In this document: positions 9,241 through 55,052 of the stretch, one piece after another
Layout of the letters: each line of letters begins with the position of its first letter
Position numbering within the stretch: position 1 is the stretch's first letter
Origin: an uncultured Aquimarina sp.
GTDB taxonomy: Bacteria; Bacteroidota; Bacteroidia; Flavobacteriales; Flavobacteriaceae
Reading direction: 5' to 3'
Length of the DNA: 64,000 bases
Assembly: GCA_947498595.1 (NCBI GenBank)
Contig: CANMKX010000002.1
Location: 124,001-188,000, forward strand
The notes under the pieces: generated by a model
Database searches by the model: none
Told to the model about the DNA's origin: nothing
The model's input: only the letters and a program-made list of their open reading frames with translations
Position numbers and translations under genes: made by a program

Positions 9241-12200
9241 TTATTCAATAATAAATCGCTTAATGATACTTTGATTCTCTCCTTGAACTTTAAGTATATA
9301 CATTCCAGTTTCTAAGCTGTTCATTTGTATAGCTTTATTTGTTACATCACCAGCTTGTACTATTTGCCCAACAATATTCAACACTTGATATGTTGCTTTT
9401 GTCGGTCCTACATTATTAATAGAAATATTAAGTACTTCACCTCTTTTTAATGGATTTGGATATATCGCTACTTCAAAATTATTTTCTCCTAAAGTTGCTA
9501 CTTCTTCTCCTCCAAATGAACTCAATGCTGTTCCACATTGTCCCAAGTTAGTCCATCCTGTACTTGTTCTCTCATATAGTGTACCTTGATATGTTACTCT
9601 TGTACCTACTTGATATGTTGCGCTTGTACTGTATTCTGCTATTCCATCACAAATATCTGCTGATGAACCAGTTTCTGTAAGTTTCACATCATCTATCACG
9701 ATATCTCCTTGCCAGCTAGTACCTGTTACAACATTAAATCTTAATTGTACACCTGCTCCTATATATGATGCTAAATCAATAGTTGCAGTATTCCAGTTAC
9801 TTCCTTGACTTCCTGATATATTAAATACACTTGTCCAAGATCCTCCATTATTTGTACTCGCTTCAACATCTAATGTTCCTACAGCGTTTCCTAGCATATG
9901 ATATTGGAAACTAAAATTAGCTGCTGATAAATTGCTTAAATCAAAACATGGTGAATTAAGAATAGCTCTTTTATTTGGGTATCCTGTTCCATTTCCTGAT
10001 GCCTCTACATAAATATAAGAACTTCCTTCTACTGCTCCACTAGGTCCTGTCCCATTTGATGGTGTTCCATTTGCATCTACAGTCCAATTTAGGTCATCAC
10101 CAGTACCTTGACTCCAAGCTCCTGTTGATCCTTCAAATCCTTCTGCATATGGGAAACTAGCAATACCACCTGTACATCCTGTTGGTGTTGTAGCTCCTTC
10201 TTCAATACTCAATCCATCAATAGCTACATCACCTTGCCAGCTAGATCCTGTTACTGTATTAAGTCTTAATTGTACGCTTGCATTTCCTACATAAGATGCT
10301 AAATCTACTGTTGCTGCTGTCCAATCACTACCTTGTGCTCCTGTTCTTGTAAAAATAGTTGCCCAAGCTCCATCATTATTTGTTCTTGCTTCTACTACAA
10401 ATGTACCGATAGCATCTCCTGTCATATGATATTGGAAGTTAAGATTTGCTGAAGCAACTCCACTTAAGTCTAAACATGGTGAATTAAGTATTGCTCTTTT
10501 ATTTGGATATCCTGTTCCATTTCCTGATGCCTCTACATAAATATAAGAATTTCCTTCTACTGCTCCACTAGGTCCTGTTCCATTTGATGGTGTACCTGCT
10601 GTATTTACTGTCCAATCTAAATCATCTCCTACATCTTGTGTCCATGCACCTGTTGATCCTTCAAATCCTTCGTTATAAGGGAAACTAGATACATCCCCAG
10701 AACATCCTTGGTTTCCACCATCACATCCATTCACGAATGATACTGTTTGATCTGTTTTTCCATTAGATCCTCCATTATTATTTTCATTTGCTCCTAAACC
10801 AACACCTCTAGCAGAGAATACTGTCCAGATTAAACAGTTATATTGTCCTCCATATAAGTCTTGATCTGCTTGTAAGATTCCATCTCTCCCTGATACATAT
10901 CCTGGATTATTAGCTGTATTTTTTAATCCTTCGATTACTAAAGCCATAGCTATATTATTTCCTCCTGTTCCATTATATAAATCAGCATCAAATCCTTCTT
11001 GATCTACTAATGCCCATGTTAAGTCCCAAAGAATTGTTGCAAATCCATATCCAACTCCGTGTGGAGCTGCTAATGTATTTACATCGCTATAATCTGTTCC
11101 GTTTACCGATGTATCTGTAGAATATGGTGTTGGACGAATTCCTCCTCCATTAGGTCCTTGACCTATTACATAACTACCAACTCCTCTAGAATCTGTTCCT
11201 GCATCTCCTGCTTTCATTGTTAACATTAATCCAAACCAGTCAGACCATCCTTCACCCATTTGCTCTGATCCTCCTAAACCATTTGTAGAAGGTCCTCCTA
11301 CTAAACGGATAGAAATACCATGTCCATACTCATGTGCTATAACTACGTTATCAAAATCACCATCAATTTGTGGGTTTCCGTTCCATAAAAACATTTGCAT
11401 CCTTGGGTTTCCTCCATCTGGTGGTGTTGAAAAATTCGCGTTATTAGACCCTGATCCATCTTGTGCATCTGCATTTACTGAATCACTTCCTACTCCACCA
11501 TTTCCATAGTTATTTTCTTGAAAATTCCCACTTGCTTCATTAAATCCATATTGATACCATACATCATGCATAATATTATTCCAATAAAATAAATTTGTTG
11601 TTGCTGCATCTAAATATGTACTTGGTGCTTGATTTAAATTTAAAGAAAAATCAAATTCTAGAGCTGCTCCTCCATTAGGGGATGCTCCAGTTCCATTATT
11701 TCCGTTTGCATCGTCTTGAGCCCATACATTATTTCCTCTTGTAATTGTATATTCTGCTCCTGCTGCTCCATTAGTATCATGCCATCCATAAGGAGATGCT
11801 ACAGTATTTGCAGGATCTGTTACTATAGAACGACTTCCATGATTAGGACTTTCAACTGGGATTGGATATACATTATATTTCTCTCCTGCTAAAGTTGCCG
11901 TTGGTATCTCAGCTACTTTTACAGGTGGAGTTGTAAATAAGTCAATTGTTTCATTAGTTGCATGATTATGAGCTGCATGATTAGGTGTTCCAAAATTACA
12001 ATGTAATACCCAATCTTCAGTTTCTAATATTTTTCCAGTATTTGCATCTATATTTACATTCCACCAATGTTCTCCATTTTTTTGATATAGACTTACGTTC
12101 CAAGCTAATTTCAATTTATCTCCTATCAATTGATATACTTGTTTTACTTCGATCGGCTCTAATGATATTCCCGAATCCTTATAAATATACTTTCCATTGG

Positions 12201-17743: not shown

Positions 17744-17879
17744 AAAATAATCATCAAGCATTAATCAATTTGTTTTTGGTATGTTTTAGAAGAGAAACAA
17801 AAAAAGCTTCATATTTCTATGAAGCTTTTTCTTAGTAGCGGGAACTGGACTCGAACCAGTGACCTTCGGGTTATGAGCC
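17744..17879. repeat. attL plus extended tRNA-flank repeat
   Basis: Matches 54884-55023 with a few mismatches; last 47 bp identical. Confidence 0.85.
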
Positions 17880-18048: not shown

Positions 18049-19389
18049 ATGGCATCAGTAAAGATAATACTTTGGAAGCATGATAAGAAAAAAGATGGTT
18101 CTTGTCCTTTAGCTCTGAGAATTACCAAAAATAGAAAACCGAGATATATTTTTACAGGAGAATATATTTTTGAGAAGGATTGGGATACAAAAGCAAGTAA
18201 AGTAAAAAAGTCTCATCCCAATTCTACTCGCCTTAATAATTTGCTACTAAAAAAGCTCAGTGAAGCCCATGCAACACTATTAGAGACAGAAATAAGGGAC
18301 GAAAACTTAACCACTAAACAAATACAAACAAAAGTTAAAAGAAAAGGCTCTAATGTCTCCTTTTTTCAACTAGCATCGGATAGAATTAAAGATAAGTACG
18401 AAAAAGGAACTTTTTCAGTAGCAAGAGCTGAACTTTCTATACTTCATAACATACAAGAATTTTTAATATATAATCCTGCTGATCCTAAATTATTGGTTAT
18501 AGATAAAATTAGAGAACGACGAAAAAATCGTATTTCTAAGGCTCGTAAATATCAAAATTCTGTTACTGATGAAATAAGGTTTTTTTCAAAGAATAAAAAC
18601 TTATTATTTCAAGATATTAATAATAGTTTTATTAATAAATACAAAATTTTTTGTTCTTCTTATTTAGAGCAAAAAACAAGAACTATAACGAATCAATTAA
18701 TATTTATACGCACGCTTTATAATTCAGCGATAAAAGAGGGGATAGCAAATAAAAAAGATTATCCTTTTGCGGGAGAAAACGAAAAAATAAAAATCAAATC
18801 GAGTAATAAAATTGGGCTTACTAAACGAGAAATAGAAAAAATAGAAAATTTGCAATTAGAGCCAAACACTCCAATCTGGCATACAAAAAACGTATTCTTA
18901 TTTTCATACTATTTTGCAGGAGTTCGTATTTCTGATGTATTAGAGCTTAAATGGTTCAACTTTGTAGATGGTAGACTTTACTATGAAATGAATAAAAATG
19001 AAAAACCTGTGAGCTTAAAAATTCCTGAGAAAGCATTAGGCATACTATCTTTGTATGCAAAAAGTAAAGAAAATAACGCTGATTATGTTTTTCCGTTTCT
19101 CAAAAAAGCAGATCAAAACAACAAAGAAGATATTTTTATAAAAACTCGCAACGCATCTAAGCTTTTTAATAAGTACCTGAAGCGAATTGCAGAAAAATGC
19201 AACATAGAAAAAAACCTATCAAACCATATAGCTCGTCATACATTCGGAAACATTGCTGGTGATAAAATAAACCCTTTGATGCTTCAAAAGCTATATCGCC
19301 ATAGTAATCTAAAAACTACTATAAACTATCAAGCTAATTTTATTCATAAAGAAGCGGATGATGCTTTGGACATGGTTTTAAATTCTTAA
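18049..19389 (+). CDS. Tyrosine-type site-specific integrase
   Basis: Catalytic pattern 'AGVRISDVLELKWF', 'NHIARHTFGNIAGDK', 'LYRHSNLKTTINYQ'. Confidence 0.92.
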   Translation: MASVKIILWKHDKKKDGSCPLALRITKNRKPRYIFTGEYIFEKDWDTKASKVKKSHPNSTRLNNLLLKKLSEAHATLLETEIRDENLTTKQIQTKVKRKGSNVSFFQLASDRIKDKYEKGTFSVARAELSILHNIQEFLIYNPADPKLLVIDKIRERRKNRISKARKYQNSVTDEIRFFSKNKNLLFQDINNSFINKYKIFCSSYLEQKTRTITNQLIFIRTLYNSAIKEGIANKKDYPFAGENEKIKIKSSNKIGLTKREIEKIENLQLEPNTPIWHTKNVFLFSYYFAGVRISDVLELKWFNFVDGRLYYEMNKNEKPVSLKIPEKALGILSLYAKSKENNADYVFPFLKKADQNNKEDIFIKTRNASKLFNKYLKRIAEKCNIEKNLSNHIARHTFGNIAGDKINPLMLQKLYRHSNLKTTINYQANFIHKEADDALDMVLNS

Positions 19390-29553: not shown

Positions 29554-29762
29554 TGCCCCAGTTTTTTATATGAAGATGCTGTGATCTAAGTGAATTACAC
29601 TTTTGACAGTGTTGGAGTAATTTTTAAAGAGGAACTCTTTCTCCGTTCAACGAAAAGTTTCATTCAATTGGGGTGTTTATAGCTCTTTTTTATTCTCCAG
29701 AAGATGCTGTTTTTATGATCTTTTTTAATCCAAAATGATTTTAAAAAAATGAGAAGAGACAC

Positions 29763-29927
29763 CTCCTATACACAGGCAAAGATAGCCTTACCCCCTATGC
29801 GAGCAAGACCAAGCGAGAATCATAATATTTTTTGGATTTCATCTGCAAAAAATATCGCGCCTGTCTTGCTTTTTCCTTTCTGTGGCTACAAAAAGCCCGT
29901 TATAGGAGCAACATCAATCTCGCTCCT
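29763..29927 (+). ncRNA. Candidate structured RNA/DNA element, copy 1
   Basis: CTCCTATA(29763-29770)/TATAGGAG(29901-29908); AGCAAGAC/GTCTTGCT; ATATTTTTTG/CAAAAAATAT; alternative AGGAGC/GCTCCT (29904-29909/29922-29927). Confidence 0.55.
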
Positions 29928-29966
29928 CTTTAAGAAACAATATATATAATTTAAAATGTTAGAATT

Positions 29967-30364
29967 ATGGCAACAGCAGTAAAAAACGGAAGTACAAAAA
30001 AGGCTACAATGGCAAATGCTCAACTGAAAGAAAAATTAGCTGAAGAAGCCACGGAAACAGTATCAAAAGCGACTCCACAACCGCCAAAAGAAGCAGTAAT
30101 AACGCTGGATGAAAGAATCGCAAAGTTTAAGAAACTACAAGGACTCAACAATCAAAGAGACCGTTTAGTGAGTACATTAGAGAGCTTGCAAACTTTAATC
30201 TCAACCAAGACTTCTCATCTACATTTTTGCTTAGAGATTCTGCGGGATTGGAATTTAAGGCAAACAATTCGAATCTGATACAAATTGTAGCTACGGGTTT
30301 ACAAAGAACATTAGAACAACGTAAAAATGAGTTAGAAAAGCAGATTTTAGAATTTGTGCTTTAA
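29967..30364 (+). pseudogene. Frameshifted paralog of 33231-33641
   Basis: MATAVKNGSTKK... matches intact copy until a 1-nt deletion near 30195; the other frame then encodes NFNLNQDFSSTFLLRDSAGLEFKANNSNLIQ...LEKQILEFVL. Confidence 0.8.
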
Positions 30365-30483
30365 ACCAATTTAACTCAAAAATGAGTCCTTTATGGAAAA
30401 CTATAAAGGACTCGTTTATATTAAAACCAGAATAAGATTCCTCATAAGGTAATCTATATAATAATTTTTTAAGATACTTTTCT

Positions 30484-31611
30484 TTAGAAACCTTTTAAAT
30501 ATTCTATATAATTATTATATATTTTAGTTTTTTCTTTCTCTAAAAGATTAAGAAGTTTTTTTTTGACTTTTCTTTTATCGGATGAAGGAATATTATTTTT
30601 TAAATTAAAAGAACCAATATTAATTTCAAATTCAGCTTTATTTCCAATTTTTTCAAAATATGGAAATCCAAAATTTACAGAAAGATTACCTTCCGCGAGT
30701 TCGTAATTAAAATTAAATTTCACTTCCATTCCCCAACATTTAATATATTTATGGTACTTTTTCTCTTTAAAAAAGAAATCTTTTTGAATGCCTTTTCCTT
30801 TAAAGATTAAAGTATCTTTATCTGACATCCAATCAATTTCTTTAGGAAGATCAGAATCTTCATCTGCTTTAAAATGAACATCAATTATATCGTCAAAATT
30901 AAAGAAAGAATTATTCATTTTATTTGATAATCTAAGAAAAAAAATTATCCTTGTTTCATTGTTGAAGTCTCCGAAATAAATCTTTTTTATTTCCTCTTTT
31001 GGAGCTATTGAATTAGTTTTTTTAAAATGATCTAATACAATGTTTTCAATAACATTGGCAACCTTTAAAGTTTCTTGAGAGGTATACTCTTTGATTATTT
31101 TAATAGAAGAGCCACCTTCTTGTTTTTCTATAATTAAATTACCAGAAAATAAATTACTAGATTCATACCAACTTTTATTAAAGTCTTGTCGTATTATTTC
31201 AAAATTTAAGACAACTTTATCATTCAGTTTAGATTCCTTATAAAAGGGAGATAATTTATTAACTTTGAAATTGATTAAATTAAAATCAATTTTATCATTA
31301 ATATTGATTGTATCTGGAACTATATTAATTAATTCTTCTTGAGAGTTGAATGATATTGTACCTGTTGAAGATTTTGTATTATCTTCTTTTGTATTTAATT
31401 GATCTTTTAAAAATTCAAACTCATTTGGACTTAACAATATGGTACTAAGGAAAGGGACATATTTTTCTTTTGAATTATGATTAAAAAAAACACCTCTCTT
31501 GCGTAATATTTCTTTTAAATCCGATTTAGAAAGTAGAGATTGATTAACAAATCCTCTTAAAAACTCACCTTGTGGTAATATTTTATCTATATGTTTATAT
31601 GGATCTATCAT
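30484..31611 (-). CDS. GapS4b-like protein of candidate two-gene antiphage system
   Basis: 'ILPQGEFLRGFVNQSLLSKSDLKEILRKRGVFFNHNSKEKYVPFLSTILLSPNEFEFL'; 4-nt overlap with upstream gene; family recalled from memory. Confidence 0.5.
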   Translation of the reverse strand: MIDPYKHIDKILPQGEFLRGFVNQSLLSKSDLKEILRKRGVFFNHNSKEKYVPFLSTILLSPNEFEFLKDQLNTKEDNTKSSTGTISFNSQEELINIVPDTININDKIDFNLINFKVNKLSPFYKESKLNDKVVLNFEIIRQDFNKSWYESSNLFSGNLIIEKQEGGSSIKIIKEYTSQETLKVANVIENIVLDHFKKTNSIAPKEEIKKIYFGDFNNETRIIFFLRLSNKMNNSFFNFDDIIDVHFKADEDSDLPKEIDWMSDKDTLIFKGKGIQKDFFFKEKKYHKYIKCWGMEVKFNFNYELAEGNLSVNFGFPYFEKIGNKAEFEINIGSFNLKNNIPSSDKRKVKKKLLNLLEKEKTKIYNNYIEYLKGF

Positions 31612-32522
31612 CTCAAATAAGAAAAAAGTTTAATATTAGATTTTGCATAACTTTCATTGAATGAAAGTAAGGCTGTGTGTATCATGTTTTTATGCCTCAA
31701 TTCATTATAATCGGGAAAACCTATGAAAGTTTTTGAAGCCCATCCTTGTGATATTTCAAGGGAAAGCCCTACTAACCTTTTAAAATCAGATACATTGAAA
31801 TTATCTTTTGTACATATATATAAGTTAGATTGATTATTATTAATTATTTCTTTAAAAACTAAAATATTAGAGGTTAAAAATTCTACAGGCATAATATTAC
31901 CAGAAAATTGTCTTTCATTTGGATTTAAATTTTTACCAGTTGAAGGATAGTAGAATTCTAATTTGTTAGAACCTATTTTAAGTTTAATAGCATCAATACT
32001 TCTTTTAATGAAATAATATGAACTATTACTGAACACTAAAATTTTTTCAAAATTTAAATCTTCTGTAAATCTAGTCGTAGAAATCTCATTTAATAAACTA
32101 TCATCTTTTTCCGAAGGAGAATTACTTAGCCAAACTAATATTCCTAATGTATTTATATTATTGTAATAATCAAAACCAGAAATTAAATTTGATCTAACTT
32201 GAGATTTTTTGTAGCACTCTAAACTATTTGCTAAATCAACAAAAAATGGTTTAAAAGTACCTCTAGGAGCATCGGGATATTCTTTATCACTATATTTGAC
32301 AGAAATAAAAATATCAACGAGTTCTCCTTCAACTAGAGGTGATTTATATATAAAACCAAGATCTAAACCATGAGTTCCTCTTTCAAGACTTTTTTTATGA
32401 TTCGAAGGAGTAACACAGTCGATAGTCATTCCTTCATTTAAAACGTCCCATCCAACTTTATTAAAAAAATCTAAAGTGATTTTTTCACCATATTCACCAA
32501 TTTTTTTGGCTAATTCACCCAT
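31608..32522 (-). CDS. GapS4a-like putative PD-(D/E)xK nuclease
   Basis: 'GEYGEKITLDFFNKVGWDVLNEGMTIDC...THGLDLGFIYKSPLVEGELVDIFISVKYSDKEYP' (D..xVK nuclease-like core). Confidence 0.5.
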   Translation of the reverse strand: MGELAKKIGEYGEKITLDFFNKVGWDVLNEGMTIDCVTPSNHKKSLERGTHGLDLGFIYKSPLVEGELVDIFISVKYSDKEYPDAPRGTFKPFFVDLANSLECYKKSQVRSNLISGFDYYNNINTLGILVWLSNSPSEKDDSLLNEISTTRFTEDLNFEKILVFSNSSYYFIKRSIDAIKLKIGSNKLEFYYPSTGKNLNPNERQFSGNIMPVEFLTSNILVFKEIINNNQSNLYICTKDNFNVSDFKRLVGLSLEISQGWASKTFIGFPDYNELRHKNMIHTALLSFNESYAKSNIKLFSYLR

Positions 32523-32684
32523 AGTTTATGATTTTAATGATTAATAGATTAGATTATTTATATCAATGATTTAATCTATAGGGCAATGATATAAATAGAA
32601 TTGTAAAATGTAATTTAGAAATCGAATATACTAAAAAAAACACTTGTATTATTGAAAAGAAACTATGCTTGCATAAAATCAAAA

Positions 32685-32812
32685 ATTCGTAGAAGCTATG
32701 AGCAAGAAACAGGAATGCCGATTCATACCGAAAACGACTACAAAAATCACATGGCATGGTTTGCGTATGAATATGTAGCGTATCAAATAGTACAAAAGCT
32801 TGGAGTATTTTA
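32685..32812 (+). pseudogene. 5'-truncated copy of the DUF7222-like gene
   Basis: aattcgtagaagctatgagcaagaaacaggaatgccgattcatacc... nearly identical to 29426-29553, no N-terminal part. Confidence 0.85.
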
Positions 32813-33027
32813 ATACTCTGAGTTTTAAAAGATGAAGATTCGAAGATATAAGCATAATGAACTTTTAGCAGTCCTAGAGAGTAAATCAAAGAGGGGATTT
32901 GCCCTTTATTAAACAAGATGTTTCATTTTAATAGCGTGTAGTTACGAATTATTTCCTCTTCCGTTTTATAAGCCTGTTTCGTGTCTTTTTTATAAATACA
33001 TGATAGACCAAGAATGATGAAAGATAA

Positions 33028-33192
33028 CTCCCATACACAGGCAAAGATAGCCTGCGCCAACCGCATGGGCAAGACCAAGCGAGAGTCACGCTATTTTTTG
33101 GATTTCATCCGCAAAAAATAGCGCGCCTGTCTTGCTTTTTCCTTTCTACGGCAACAAAAAGCCTGTTATGGGAGCAATATCAACATCGCTCC
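33028..33192 (+). ncRNA. Candidate structured RNA/DNA element, copy 2
   Basis: CTCCCATA(33028-33035)/TATGGGAG(33167-33174); GCAAGAC(33069-33075)/GTCTTGC(33129-33135); CGCTATTTTTTG(33089-33100)/CAAAAAATAGCG(33112-33123); alternative GGAGC/GCTCC (33171-33175/33188-33192). Confidence 0.55.
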
Positions 33193-33230: not shown

Positions 33231-33641
33231 ATGGCAACAGCAGTAAAAAACGGAAGAGGAAAAAAGGAAACAGCAACGGCAAACACGCAATTAAAAGAAA
33301 AATTAGCACAACAAGCCGTAGGCGCATCAACCAAAACGCTTCCAACACCCGTAGAACAGCCAAAAGAGCCTGTAATAACCTTAGACGATAGAATTGCAAA
33401 ATTCAAGAAACTACAGGGATTAAATAACCAAAGAGAGCGTTTGGTAGAAACTTTGGAGAACCTATCTAATTTTAATCTCAACCAAGATTTTTCATCTACA
33501 TTTTTGTTAAGGGATTCTGGAGGATTAGAATTTAAAACTAACAATTCCAACTTGATACAATTGGTGACGAATCAATTACAAACGACGCTAGAACATCGCA
33601 GAGCGGAATTGGAAAAGCAGATTCTCGAATTTAATCTATAA
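33231..33641 (+). CDS. Small conserved protein downstream of structured element (136 aa)
   Basis: Intact copy; 'ITLDDRIAKFKKLQGLNNQRERLVETLENLSNFNLNQDFSSTFLLRDSGGLEFKTNNSNLI'. Confidence 0.75.
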   Translation: MATAVKNGRGKKETATANTQLKEKLAQQAVGASTKTLPTPVEQPKEPVITLDDRIAKFKKLQGLNNQRERLVETLENLSNFNLNQDFSSTFLLRDSGGLEFKTNNSNLIQLVTNQLQTTLEHRRAELEKQILEFNL

Positions 33642-39722: not shown

Positions 39723-41276
39723 ATGGCAAAGAAATATGTGCCAGATGGAGTGTTTTTGGCGTGTGATAAAGGCACATGTCCATCAACTTTCAAAGTAACC
39801 AATCATAAAAAAACGACAATATATAATTCTCCTATGGCAACAGAAGGAGACTTATTTCCGTTTTTTAATATTAAGCCTATGGGATTTTGTACAAATCCTG
39901 CAAAAATATTAGCTACAGGTGCTATGTGCACTCCAGTAGTATTACAATGGGAAAAACCTAAAGATGGAGTCACGATTGATGGTAAAAGACTATTATTAGA
40001 AGATTCTACGTGTAAATGTACTCTTGGTGGTGGTGAAATATCAATACATTTTGATATAGCCTCAGCGAATACGATAGCAGTATGGGGCGGCATGAAGATG
40101 CCAACTGAATATATAAAAGAAGGTTTTGATTGGGCGTTTGCAACGATTGAAGAATCGAGAGCCGAGAGAAATAAGTATTTGCCCGAATGGATGGAGCCAG
40201 TGGCAGATGTCCATGATTGGTTTGATGATATGACCTTAGCGTTATTAGAAGGAGCAGTTACAGGTGTAGTTGGATTAGGAGAAGTAGTATATCAAGTAGC
40301 GCAAGACCCAGTTGGAATGGGCGAAGCTCTTTATGATATGGCAGAAGAAGCGTATCAGTGGCAAGATCAGAAGAAAATGGAAGCTCTTTTATGGATGAGT
40401 AAGAAGGAAAATTGGGAAGCTACAGGTGATGCCACATGGGATTGGCTAACGGAAGAAGGGAGTTTATCAAGTACTGCAAAAGAAGCTTGGGAAGGAGTAG
40501 AAAATGCAGTATCTTCGGGTACAGATTGGCTTGCTAAGAACCCACGAAAGCTAGGAACAGTTGTAGGCGAATTTGTTCCTGATGCAGTAGGTGCAGCATA
40601 CACAGGAGGTGCTACAGTAGCCTTGACGGCAGGAAAGAAAATAGTAAAAGAAGTAGGCGAAGAAATTGTAGAAGAAGTAGTAGAGAAAGTTGCAAAAGAA
40701 GCTGTAGAAGAAGCCAGCGAAGCTGCGAGTAAAAAGGCGATAAAAGAAGTAGCAGAAGAAGTAGTCGAGGAAACAGGAAAAGATCTTCCGAAGGTGGTTA
40801 CGAAGGATGCGGATGAGGTGGCTGAATTAAAAATGCTACCTCCTCCAAAAGTAACTACCAAAAAGACATTAAAGCAAGTAAGAAATTTAAGAGGTAGAAA
40901 AAAATGGGAAGCTGGAGAGGAGTATGTTCAAGATCTATATGGTTCTAATGGGCAAAAACATTATACAGTTCCTAAAGACGGTGAAATAACAGGTACTGGA
41001 GGGCGTCATGTCGATGCACCTGTAGAAATACTAAATAATGGTATTCTCGCTATTGAAGTAAAAACGTATAATAGATATATTACTGTAGAAGGAGCGGTTA
41101 AAGTAAATGAAGTACCTTTAAGTAATTCTATCAAACAACAAATATTAAAAGATGTTTGGCTAAGAGATAACATAAATGGATACGATCCTAGATGGATATT
41201 TTTAGATGCACCACCAAGTTCTCAATTATCTGATTTTTTGCAACAAAAAAATATAATATCTATAATATATAATTAA
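39723..41276 (+). CDS. PAAR-like (DUF4280) polymorphic toxin with C-terminal PD-(D/E)xK-like nuclease domain
   Basis: N-term 'VPDGVFLACDKGTCPSTFKV...MGFCTNPAKILATGAMCTPVV'; C-term 'GGRHVDAPVEILNNGILAIEVKTYNRY'. Confidence 0.8.
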   Translation: MAKKYVPDGVFLACDKGTCPSTFKVTNHKKTTIYNSPMATEGDLFPFFNIKPMGFCTNPAKILATGAMCTPVVLQWEKPKDGVTIDGKRLLLEDSTCKCTLGGGEISIHFDIASANTIAVWGGMKMPTEYIKEGFDWAFATIEESRAERNKYLPEWMEPVADVHDWFDDMTLALLEGAVTGVVGLGEVVYQVAQDPVGMGEALYDMAEEAYQWQDQKKMEALLWMSKKENWEATGDATWDWLTEEGSLSSTAKEAWEGVENAVSSGTDWLAKNPRKLGTVVGEFVPDAVGAAYTGGATVALTAGKKIVKEVGEEIVEEVVEKVAKEAVEEASEAASKKAIKEVAEEVVEETGKDLPKVVTKDADEVAELKMLPPPKVTTKKTLKQVRNLRGRKKWEAGEEYVQDLYGSNGQKHYTVPKDGEITGTGGRHVDAPVEILNNGILAIEVKTYNRYITVEGAVKVNEVPLSNSIKQQILKDVWLRDNINGYDPRWIFLDAPPSSQLSDFLQQKNIISIIYN

Positions 41277-42823: not shown

Positions 42824-43003
42824 ATAAATTGTTTAATGGTTTCTATACTTTATATATGGTTTGCACTTATTTTTTGGCTGTTTTAATGAATAATCATGAT
42901 GATATTTTTTGAGTGAATTTCACACAAGTACCTGTCTTCCAAATATCTAACCTAATTCATTCTATTGAGTTTTTATGCGTTTAGGGAGGTATATCGTAGT
43001 ACG

Positions 43004-43113
43004 ATAGCCTACTATATTGAGCGAAGTAATATATATACGGAGTAGGCTATGCAAGATAGCCTGTTGTATTTAACACTTGCTTTGCAAGTTAAAATACGGA
43101 CACAGGCATCTTG
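43004..43113. other. Structured non-coding region
   Basis: ATAGCCTACT(43004-43013)/AGTAGGCTAT(43041-43050); GTATTTAACACTTGC/GCAAGTTAAAATAC (43066-43097) inside GCCTGT/ACAGGC. Confidence 0.5.
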
Positions 43114-45962: not shown

Positions 45963-47309
45963 TTATAGGATTTTTGAAGTTAAATCTGCTTTTTTGTAGA
46001 GTTTTGATGTTTTTTTAAACCAAGGCGAAATCTTAAGCTGAATAGCATCCAGCCCATTGATATAAAGGCAGGTGAATTTGGGCATGCCAACAATCTCATC
46101 CGCACGCATGAGCGGCATTGGGCGCAACGCCCCATTAATTTCTTCGGTTTTTGTACCTAAAAGGGTTTCTACTTGTACGGCTTGTTCACGGCGTAAATTG
46201 CCAAAATAGACCTGGTTGAGCATGTTGGCTAAAATGGTTTTTGCTGCGGTTTTACCGTAGTTATTTTCTATTTGTGCAATCTCCTGAACGTAGATAAAAA
46301 GGGCTACTTTGTACTTTCGAAGTACGCTTACCATTTGAGGGAATTGAGAAATGGAATACGTTGGAAACTCGTCCAAAAACATAAAAATAGGCTTGAATTC
46401 TTTGCCTTTTTGGGGCTTTTCAAGCGCCATTTCCATCATTTGAGTATTGAAGATTGACAGCAAAAAACGGTAGTATTTTTCCTTCCCTTCCTCTATACGA
46501 AGAAACAACGCTTTTTTGTGGGTTCTAAGTGAAGATAGTTCAAGAGAATCTGTAGAAGTAAGCTGTTGTATACTTTTGCTTTTAAGCTTGCTAAGTGGTG
46601 CTTTAGCACTGGCAAGAATATTACTTTTAAGCTTAGGGTCTAAGCCCATAAACGCAGCAAAATCCATAAAGATTTCTTCAGGTATATGCTGTTCTATAAA
46701 GAGGATCGCTTCTTGAGGTTTTACGGTAATAAGATTGATTAAATGGTATAATCCCAAAAGATTCTTCTTTGTTTCATCTTGTTGACTCTCGGCCAATAAG
46801 GCGGTAAGAAGGGTTTCTACAAGTGAAATAGCGGATTGTTCCCAAAACGTTTTGGTAGTTTTAGTTTCTGGGCAGATCAATAGCTCGGCGAGTTCTTGAA
46901 TCCCGTTTTCGTTTCGTATAGTTCGTTTAAGTGGATTATACGTATCACTTTCGCTTGGATTTGAGAGGTCTAATCGAGAGATAGAATAGCCTACATTTTT
47001 TAAATGTTTACCACAGATGGATTCTAATTCGCCCGAAACATCGAGCAAAAACAGACTATAATCGTCTTTTTTTGTAATACTTAAAAGATGATTGATGATA
47101 GTGGTACTCTTGCCTGAGCCTGTTGGAGCGCAATATAATGTATGATTATACAGGTGCTTTTCGAGCAGGAAGTTTTTCCCGTCGATGCAGAATCCATTTT
47201 GAGTTGTGGTTTTAAAATATTTGTTTTTGGTACGACGGCTCATAAAGTGAGCATTTCCAAATTGGGTGTTTTCGTTTTGGTTGTTTCCAAATAATAAATC
47301 GTAGAGCAT
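45963..47309 (-). CDS. VirD4/TraG-like type IV coupling protein
   Basis: Walker A 'YCAPTGSGKSTTIINHLL', 'FMFLDEFPTYSISQFPQMVSVLRKYKVALFIYVQEIAQIENNYG'. Confidence 0.85.
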   Translation of the reverse strand: MLYDLLFGNNQNENTQFGNAHFMSRRTKNKYFKTTTQNGFCIDGKNFLLEKHLYNHTLYCAPTGSGKSTTIINHLLSITKKDDYSLFLLDVSGELESICGKHLKNVGYSISRLDLSNPSESDTYNPLKRTIRNENGIQELAELLICPETKTTKTFWEQSAISLVETLLTALLAESQQDETKKNLLGLYHLINLITVKPQEAILFIEQHIPEEIFMDFAAFMGLDPKLKSNILASAKAPLSKLKSKSIQQLTSTDSLELSSLRTHKKALFLRIEEGKEKYYRFLLSIFNTQMMEMALEKPQKGKEFKPIFMFLDEFPTYSISQFPQMVSVLRKYKVALFIYVQEIAQIENNYGKTAAKTILANMLNQVYFGNLRREQAVQVETLLGTKTEEINGALRPMPLMRADEIVGMPKFTCLYINGLDAIQLKISPWFKKTSKLYKKADLTSKIL

Positions 47310-47320
47310 AATGGTATTTT

Positions 47321-48151
47321 TTAAAGGGTTTGCGATTGATCTCGGTCATATTCTTGTTCGCTTCTTTCCATAACTTCACGGAGGAGTTCAAGACGTTCGA
47401 GTGAGGAATAGCGTTCTGGTGTAATCAGCTTTTTAAGGCGATATTTTCGGTTGTTCTTCCAAAGAACCCCGTAGTACTTGGTATTTCCTCTTGAATACGG
47501 TTCTAGTTCTGGATGTTCTTCCAAAAGTTGATGTAGATGTTGTAGGTTAACAGCCGTATCAGCTAATTGATTTACAAGCTCTATAAGTGCATTAGTGTGC
47601 GTGTGTGCTTCTGATGTTTGATAGCGCTCCTGTTCTTTGTTTTTCTCTTTTAAAAACACAATACTATCGTGAAGCTCTGGAAAGTTTTTTTGCTGGTACA
47701 TCTCCAGATCTTTGTTCTGATCTATAAATTCTTTTTTTGAAATACGAACAGATTTTGCTTGTAAAAAAAGGTTTTGACTTACAGCGAGATGAATATGAAG
47801 GCAGCCAGAACTGGGTTCTGCGTGACATTTGCCAAAAACTACACAGCGATCCATTCCGCGAAGCCGAAGAAACTCATTGGTGAGTTTCCAAAGGGCTTCT
47901 GGGCTTGGATTTGACTTGTAATGATACGATAAGATTATGTGCTGGCAGCGAGTTCGTATTTTATTGCCTCGGTACTTATCGTTTTGGATGAAGGAGTTCA
48001 CGACCGTATTACGATCCACTCCACCAGATATATTTTTAAAAATAGTAAAGTCTTGTTCGCCGTTTTGTTTATCGGTAGATCCTCGTAGAATATAGTCTAT
48101 AAGCGTCTCATATCGACCCTTGAAAGGCAGCTGTTTAACAATCATAACCAA
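47321..48151 (-). CDS. Relaxase/mobilization nuclease
   Basis: 'HIILSYHYKSNPSPEALWKLTNEFLRLRG...HAEPSSGCLHIHLAVS' HxH relaxase metal motif. Confidence 0.8.
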   Translation of the reverse strand: MVMIVKQLPFKGRYETLIDYILRGSTDKQNGEQDFTIFKNISGGVDRNTVVNSFIQNDKYRGNKIRTRCQHIILSYHYKSNPSPEALWKLTNEFLRLRGMDRCVVFGKCHAEPSSGCLHIHLAVSQNLFLQAKSVRISKKEFIDQNKDLEMYQQKNFPELHDSIVFLKEKNKEQERYQTSEAHTHTNALIELVNQLADTAVNLQHLHQLLEEHPELEPYSRGNTKYYGVLWKNNRKYRLKKLITPERYSSLERLELLREVMERSEQEYDRDQSQTL

Positions 48152-48680
48152 GGTGCTTAAAATCGTTGATTATGCGCTGTAAATGGTCTAAAAACCTTGG
48201 GGTTTTCTTCATTTCACTTCGGATATAATCCTCTAAATGAAGCGGACGATATTGGGCTATTGTAGCGTTCTCAATTTTGATAAAAAGCTCCTGTACGACT
48301 TTAATATCGCTGGTATCTGCAAATCGCTTTTTATTCACCTTGTAGGCTACCTGATTAAGCAGTGTACCGAGCTTGCGGTATTGTACAATTAAGGCATAAA
48401 GTACTTTTTCATCTGGTAAAACATAGCTTTGATTACGCTGTGCTTTGATAACCTGTTTGATAAAATTGGTAACTTTAAGGTTCAGCTTTTTTGCGTCTTC
48501 AGAAATGATTTCATATTCTGATTTTTCAAACCAGATTTGTATAAGTTTCTGCTGTTTTTTCCTAGCGAGATGACGCTCTCGCATGTACTTTTTTCGGTAT
48601 ACCTTAAACAGTTTATCTTTTTCTTCTTGAGTGCTATTAAGGCAGTTTTGTTCTCGTAAAAAATCTTGAAAATTAGACAT
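48135..48680 (-). CDS. MobC-like relaxosome protein
   Basis: Start at MSNFQDFLREQ; 'YALIVQYRKLGTLLNQVAYKVNKKRF' resembles MobC 'RelGNNLNQIA'. Confidence 0.65.
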   Translation of the reverse strand: MSNFQDFLREQNCLNSTQEEKDKLFKVYRKKYMRERHLARKKQQKLIQIWFEKSEYEIISEDAKKLNLKVTNFIKQVIKAQRNQSYVLPDEKVLYALIVQYRKLGTLLNQVAYKVNKKRFADTSDIKVVQELFIKIENATIAQYRPLHLEDYIRSEMKKTPRFLDHLQRIINDFKHLGYDC

Positions 48681-48754
48681 AGGTATGTTGGGATGAGAGG
48701 GGCGTACCCTAACACCGACTTGTTTTTTTGGTGAATTTTTTTGTTCTCTGAAAA

Positions 48755-48779
48755 AAAGGGCATACCTCCTATGCCCTTT
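48755..48779. repeat. Inverted repeat in mob intergenic region (terminator or oriT part)
   Basis: AAAGGGCATA cctcc TATGCCCTTT. Confidence 0.5.
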
Positions 48780-48796
48780 ATGGTTTTTTGAAGTGT

Positions 48797-49099
48797 TTAC
48801 AAATCCATCTCCATATCGTTCTCTTGTTCCCACGTTTTGGGAATAGAATCAATAAGTTTTTGGAGTGGTGAAAGTCTTTTTTTCGCTTTTTGGAGCGATA
48901 ATCCACGATCTTTTATCGCGGTGTCATATCCGAGAGATAAAGCTCTGTACTTGAAATAATTCTTCGAATTTTTATCTAGTGCTTTCAGCGCAAGCTGTTT
49001 TTGTAATAAGCTATATTCTGCTGGAGGGATCATTTTTCCAATATTGTATCCTTTGGAAAAATATTCTCGTATAATCGCTATTTCTTTCTGCTTTTCCAT
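48797..49099 (-). CDS. Hypothetical protein in mobilization region
   Basis: 100-aa ORF, 1-bp overlap with 49099-49383. Confidence 0.55.
   Translation of the reverse strand: MEKQKEIAIIREYFSKGYNIGKMIPPAEYSLLQKQLALKALDKNSKNYFKYRALSLGYDTAIKDRGLSLQKAKKRLSPLQKLIDSIPKTWEQENDMEMDL

Positions 49100-54883: not shown

Positions 54884-55052
<169 letters not shown>

Follow-up and report, generated by a model that had tools for sequence, protein, structure and literature searches.

A duplicated structured element of a Bacteroidota island as a candidate single-stranded-DNA promoter

A mobilizable island with two copies of a structured element

The 64,000-nt stretch of an uncultured Aquimarina sp. genome analysed here (the window) contains a complete 37-kb mobilizable island (17833-55023) bounded by 47-bp att direct repeats that correspond to a tRNA end. 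Its genes include those for a tyrosine integrase (at 18049), a RadC-like protein (19582) and a serine recombinase (20788), as well as a mobilization operon (Table 1). Defensive and offensive functions occur together in the cargo, which comprises Gabija, GapS4, a VgrG with a PoNi immunity gene and GmrSD; near the VgrG gene and before the PoNi immunity gene, positions 39723-41276 encode a protein of 517 aa that has a DUF4280 domain at its N terminus and is probably type VI effector cargo, and strong nested inverted repeats occupy the gap before GmrSD (42990-43113). The GapS4a/GapS4b anti-phage pair (NCBIfam; 30484-32522), beside which lies a truncated DUF7222 copy (32683-32813), is located exactly between the two copies of the element that is the subject of this report, and these flanking repeats could allow the cassette to be lost by recombination. 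A related island in a genome of the same genus (G1091) shares the order DUF7222, element, small gene and mob operon.

The element is 146-147 nt in length and, as the earlier note on this DNA had claimed, is present in two copies, each 5' of one copy of the same small gene; the two are 86% identical over a 138-nt block (D2) and are the only ones in the genome, and the gene that follows copy 1 is frameshifted. A covariance model for which both were training members matches them at 29764-29908 (121.8 bits) and 33029-33174 (121.6 bits). The stems are all present as previously described, including the pairs that differ between the copies: the outer stem, P1, pairs as CTCCTATA/TATAGGAG in copy 1 versus CTCCCATA/TATGGGAG in copy 2, the middle stem, P3, is GCAAGAC/GTCTTGC in both and the inner hairpin is ATATTTTTTG/CAAAAAATAT versus CTATTTTTTG/CAAAAAATAG. 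Two details of that description need amendment. The loop GGATTTCATC is indeed nearly constant, but in copy 2 it is able to form a small hairpin of its own rather than being unpaired; and of the extent originally given (29763-29927 and 33028-33192) the core stands as an element of about 146 nt, whereas the tail is a separate hairpin (GGAGC...GCTCC) in which the 3' strand of P1 takes part a second time.

The fold of the + strand as RNA has z-scores of -4.8 for copy 2 and -3.9 for copy 1, values that none of 200 shuffles equalled. Energies discriminate poorly between the strands: in a four-way comparison, those of the + and - strands differ little, and the z-scores of copy 2 against dinucleotide shuffles include -4.8 for + strand RNA, -3.4 for - strand RNA and -5.6 for + strand DNA. 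Several of the related elements, folded singly, are no better than shuffles. The comparison with Rfam that had been proposed earlier, carried out with release 15 on the window and six related loci, yielded no family above the gathering threshold and nothing relevant.

Table 1. Positions in the window of the two elements, their parts and associated features.
Feature	Position	Strand	Remarks
Left att repeat, 47 bp	17833..17879		right copy 54977-55023, in tRNA gene
Element copy 1	29763..29908	- (presumed folding strand; template of + strand gene)	covariance model, fold z
P1 outer stem arm 1, copy 1	29763..29777		partner 29895-29908; swap test and both-side changes
-7 box TATCTTTG (+ strand CAAAGATA), copy 1	29777..29784	-	match to TAnnTTTG consensus
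P3 arm GCAAGAC, copy 1	29803..29809		partner 29863-29869 GTCTTGC; fold and alignment
Candidate -33 TTG, copy 1	29804..29806	-	within P3, spacer 19
P4 A/T-rich hairpin (UP-like tract), copy 1	29825..29855		folds
Putative mRNA 5'-end hairpin (AGGAGC...GCTCCT), copy 1	29904..29927	+	start predicted from box, near 29900
Small gene copy 1, frameshifted	29967..30361 (end approximate)	+	
Element copy 2, 147 nt	33028..33174	-	covariance model, fold z
P1 outer stem arm 1, copy 2	33028..33042		partner 33161-33174; swap test and both-side changes
-7 box TATCTTTG, copy 2	33042..33049	-	consensus TAnnTTTG from PMC9723704
P3 arm GCAAGAC, copy 2	33069..33075		partner 33129-33135 GTCTTGC; fold and alignment
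Candidate -33 TTG, copy 2	33070..33072	-	within P3, spacer 20
P4 A/T-rich hairpin, copy 2	33089..33123		folds
Putative mRNA 5'-end hairpin (GGGAGC...GCTCC), copy 2	33170..33192	+	start predicted from box, near 33166
Small gene copy 2, intact, 136 aa, no family match	33231..33641	+	
Inverted repeat, candidate origin of transfer	43052..43113		tentative
Coupling protein, relaxase (47321-48151), NikA-like gene (48135-48833)	45963..48833	-	

The small gene, its relatives and covariation of the element

The small gene matches no family in Pfam, NCBIfam, PHROGs or PDB sequences. Its product represents an undescribed protein family with a K-rich N terminus and a conserved EFKTTNSNLI motif, which occurs in several bacterial families: homologues were found in 15 of the 301 genomes of the host family (its own included), in more genomes of the genus and in other families. 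Where the surroundings are readable, the gene is often the first in a run of DUF932, SSB, RadC, ArdB/KlcA-type antirestriction, ArdC-N or ParB genes, and such runs commonly lie near an integrase, one group being accompanied by a DUF5712 gene and a coupling protein. These neighbours (SSB, ArdB, ArdC-like, DUF932, ParB and RadC) are typical leading-region genes, and the leading region of F, used as a positive control, contains the same kinds of genes, which suggests that the runs themselves occupy a leading position. A leader peptide was considered and rejected: the open frame of copy 1 (29749-29949) is lost in copy 2 through a 1-nt shift.

As a rule, a structured element lies upstream of the small gene, and these elements fall into at least two sequence classes. 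Class A comprises the two window copies, G1091, L017, L018, L068/L071, L069, L070, L072, L054 and L056. A covariance model built from twelve class A sequences found further copies, three in G740 preceding small-gene homologues and one in G888 preceding a different small gene; G740 is a single genome with four copies of element and gene (contigs C7, C8, C23 and C28). In a class-wide sample of 139 genomes the model matched only the two already known, and it is thus specific. In all class A cases, including the one that precedes a different gene, the distance from element to start codon is fixed at about 55-80 nt. On contig L044, the element before the small gene is of class A and that before a DUF932 gene is of class B, both with the TAnnTTTG box discussed below; the latter element (reverse strand, about 10483-10640) has a perfect TACCTTTG box, and two unrelated folds thus occur within one island. 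Queried with the element or the gene, collections of phages, plasmids and viruses yielded no true relatives; viral contigs gave four weak protein matches. Matches to the second-class motif AACGTCGCAAAATATTT in viral contigs were discarded, being accompanied neither by the element nor by a following gene, as were pattern matches among genome contigs, which belonged to unrelated taxa.

The alignment of homologues and the covariation test suggested by the earlier note revealed strong covariation in 15 sequences, some of them from other families, and extend its claim of selection on the fold beyond the two copies of the window. The covariation score is 0.312, against 0.165 +/- 0.016 for shuffled alignments (0 of 500 shuffles reach 0.312) and at most 0.145 for slid controls; helix cells changed on both sides number 71, against 28.9 expected, and in P1 both-side changes affect 11 of the 12 pairs. 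This alignment was fitted to the model and leans towards its structure, hence the importance of a swap test of P1 that requires no alignment. In that test, arms combined with their own partners average -18.4 kcal/mol versus -7.9 kcal/mol with partners from other families, and 9 of the 11 own pairs outperform every cross combination. The fold of the element is real and under selection. The alternative downstream pairing of the 3' arm of P1 is good in the window, L017, L018 and L070/L072, and weak in L069, L054 and L056.

The presumed folding strand and its promoter box

The near-invariant columns at the 5' end of the alignment read GCAAAnnTA, the reverse complement of TAnnTTTGC, and the -7 box of flavobacterial sigma-A promoters, located at -12 to -5, is TAnnTTTG (PMC9723704). 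On the - strand, TAnnTTTG is found in 11 of the 15 aligned members and GAnnTTTG in the other four, which include the G740 copies, whereas most members of the second class have TAnnTTTC. Among 33 leaders, a - strand -7 box at 150-215 nt occurs in 12, compared with 1.6 expected by chance; on the + strand near the gene, the box shows no excess over chance in the same leaders. In 9 of the 15 members, G1091 not among them, the box has a TTG at a distance of 19-22 nt; of the remainder, the G740 copies have a -33 spacing of 15-16, and that of L068 is ambiguous.

The wobble pairs identify the same strand. Read on the + strand, helix cells of wobble type with Watson-Crick neighbours comprise 17 A.C and a single G.T (that is, 17 G.T on the - strand), under an alignment model that itself favours + strand wobble, and the reverse of the G.U tolerance expected on the sense strand of an mRNA leader; the count includes relatives and drops to roughly 10:1 when these are collapsed. 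Folds based on Watson-Crick pairs only gave 7 versus 0, again with G.T on the - strand, and the second element class, albeit with little power, 3 G.T versus 0 A.C on that strand. Because the sense-strand wobble cells are A.C rather than G.T, the fold is assigned to the template strand of the gene. When this strand is folded, TTG and TAnnTTTG both lie on the 3' arm and are aimed at the gene, with the box just above P1, whereas in double-stranded DNA the same -7 box is directed out of the element, opposite to the direction of the gene. The stretch from P3 to P2 constitutes an unequal internal loop, and the rebuilt duplex is therefore not continuous.

A proposed promoter of the entering strand

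We propose that each element is probably a single-stranded-DNA promoter, similar to Frpo and ssi, but suited to the sigma factor of Bacteroidota. In conjugation, the recipient would receive the template strand of the small gene, which would fold, with P1, P3 and P4 bringing complementary stretches together. The 3' arm would then carry the -33 TTG and, within an internal loop that is partly open, the -7 TAnnTTTG, with the A/T tract of P4 at the place expected for an UP element. The RNA polymerase of the host may load on this fold, start within P1 and, passing the hairpin base, continue into the 5' flank, which would be the single-stranded template of the small gene, such that mRNA could be made before a second strand exists. 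One strand of P1 would be re-used in this mRNA as a 5'-end hairpin: a start near 33166 would yield a 65-nt leader opening with GGAGC...GCTCC, which might explain why one arm of P1 is complementary to two partners. Once the second strand had been made, the fold would be lost, the box would face away and the gene would fall silent.

The closest parallel is provided by Frpo, in which single-stranded DNA folds, reconstitutes promoter boxes and drives early transient expression in recipient cells (PMC9849209, PMC11541004), and which the papers found describe in F, ColIb-P9 and related plasmids, along with sigma-70-based candidates. With F Frpo1/Frpo2 and the ColIb-P9 ssi, the elements share a long template-strand hairpin with an apical A/T hairpin (PMC9849209) and promoter boxes on the 3' arm, directed towards the gene, directly 5' of genes of the leading region; F Frpo, too, occurs as two similar copies separated by a few kb. 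On the T-strand, the F Frpo blocks form a long stem with an A/T hairpin at its apex, resembling P4, with a similar order of folds and the same sign of wobble (G.T on the folding strand). There are also differences: the element is about 146 nt long compared with a block of about 460 nt in F, its boxes are the Bacteroidota TTG/TAnnTTTG instead of those of sigma-70, promoter and start codon are separated by about 57-66 nt rather than about 20 nt, and the elements reside on integrated islands. The covariance model found no match up to E = 10 in the 20-kb F leading region. The element probably works like Frpo, with no detectable homology to it.

Samuel et al. (2024) searched for Frpo-like candidates in leading regions using known Frpo sequences and the TTGACA/TATAAT consensus, a strategy which would miss elements of the present kind; their candidates are likewise structured, T-strand elements 5' of anti-defence and SSB genes, and their main text makes no mention of Bacteroid* (PMC11541004). 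A literature search, in which subscription journals were thinly covered, returned no report of single-stranded-DNA promoters in Bacteroidota. The sso origins of rolling-circle plasmids are also folded single-stranded DNA recognized by RNA polymerase, as proposed here, but make short primers and, unlike these elements, are not known to be tied to early-gene start codons.

Of the three readings offered by the earlier note, a single-stranded DNA structure used in transfer is the best supported, as a promoter and not as an origin of transfer. A trans-acting RNA finds no support, the conserved features being a promoter box and its flanking stems, with the box facing out in the duplex. A cis-regulatory mRNA leader, in which + strand RNA would fold and the 3' strand of P1 would switch partners to control transcription or translation of the small gene, could account for the invariable position of the element sense-upstream of the gene, for mutually exclusive helices in several families and for the good fold of + strand RNA; we consider it unlikely, given that the wobble asymmetry is the wrong way round for + strand RNA and that the -7 box, which is conserved more than any other motif, lies on the opposite strand. 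In addition, the + strand carries no box above chance near the gene, leaving room for a start further upstream, and the downstream hairpin, about 40 nt from the start codon, has no U-run, for which reason an intrinsic terminator was rejected as well. Also discarded was a retron, there being no reverse transcriptase among the annotated genes.

An ssi/sso-like initiation site, where polymerase on the folded - strand would make only a short primer and the gene would be incidental, would need the same fold and box, and Frpo is, to go by the title of the founding paper (cited in PMC11541004), also able to prime DNA synthesis. Nevertheless, the fixed spacing before the start codon in every class A case and a transcript with a 5'-end hairpin, which suits an mRNA better than a primer, render this reading very unlikely. 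Least probable, with only a slim chance of being correct, is duplex DNA carrying either a conventional promoter for an antisense transcript that leaves the gene or an att site or oriT whose inverted repeats bind proteins. TAnnTTTG with a TTG at 19-22 nt would be usable in a duplex too, and inverted repeats are typical of oriT, but a transcript from the box would exit the element at once, leaving the covarying upstream P2-P4 without a role, and protein-binding repeats would not yield the wobble asymmetry. Furthermore, the att repeats of the island map to 17833 and 54977, which rules out an att site here, and a better oriT candidate is present at 43052.

The main weak point of the single-stranded promoter is the polarity of transfer. 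In the DUF5712 islands, the small gene and the mob genes are co-directional, as expected of a leading region. In the window and in the G740 islands, the small gene and the relaxase operon are convergent, three of the four G740 copies residing in islands whose relaxase operon points toward the gene, so that the model needs an origin between the two with the - strand being transferred. In the window, this polarity would depend on the tentative origin at 43052-43113; three G740 islands have similar inverted repeats on the far side of the relaxase operon. On the - strand, the repeats end in ATCTTG or ATCTGG followed by C, and the MOBP nic motif is YATCCTG^Y, a resemblance that makes these repeats candidate origins but is suggestive only.

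With slightly less confidence than for the individual elements, we would regard them as the first class of single-stranded-DNA promoters in Bacteroidota, in which TTG/TAnnTTTG would be rebuilt only while the island is single-stranded, and which, distributed over unrelated island families and at least two unrelated sequence classes, would serve early anti-restriction and SSB operons in the recipient. The combination of G.T versus A.C asymmetry and box orientation provides a general sequence test of whether the molecule that folds is a DNA strand or an RNA. Single-stranded promoters account for the expression of anti-defence genes from plasmids whose DNA is not yet double-stranded, and the examples found all use sigma-70 boxes. 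If the present proposal is true, the Bacteroidota version, with another box, another sequence and a smaller size, would be a trick evolved or rebuilt for a different transcription machinery, and would aid the search for early genes on the Bacteroidota islands, by which defence systems are spread.
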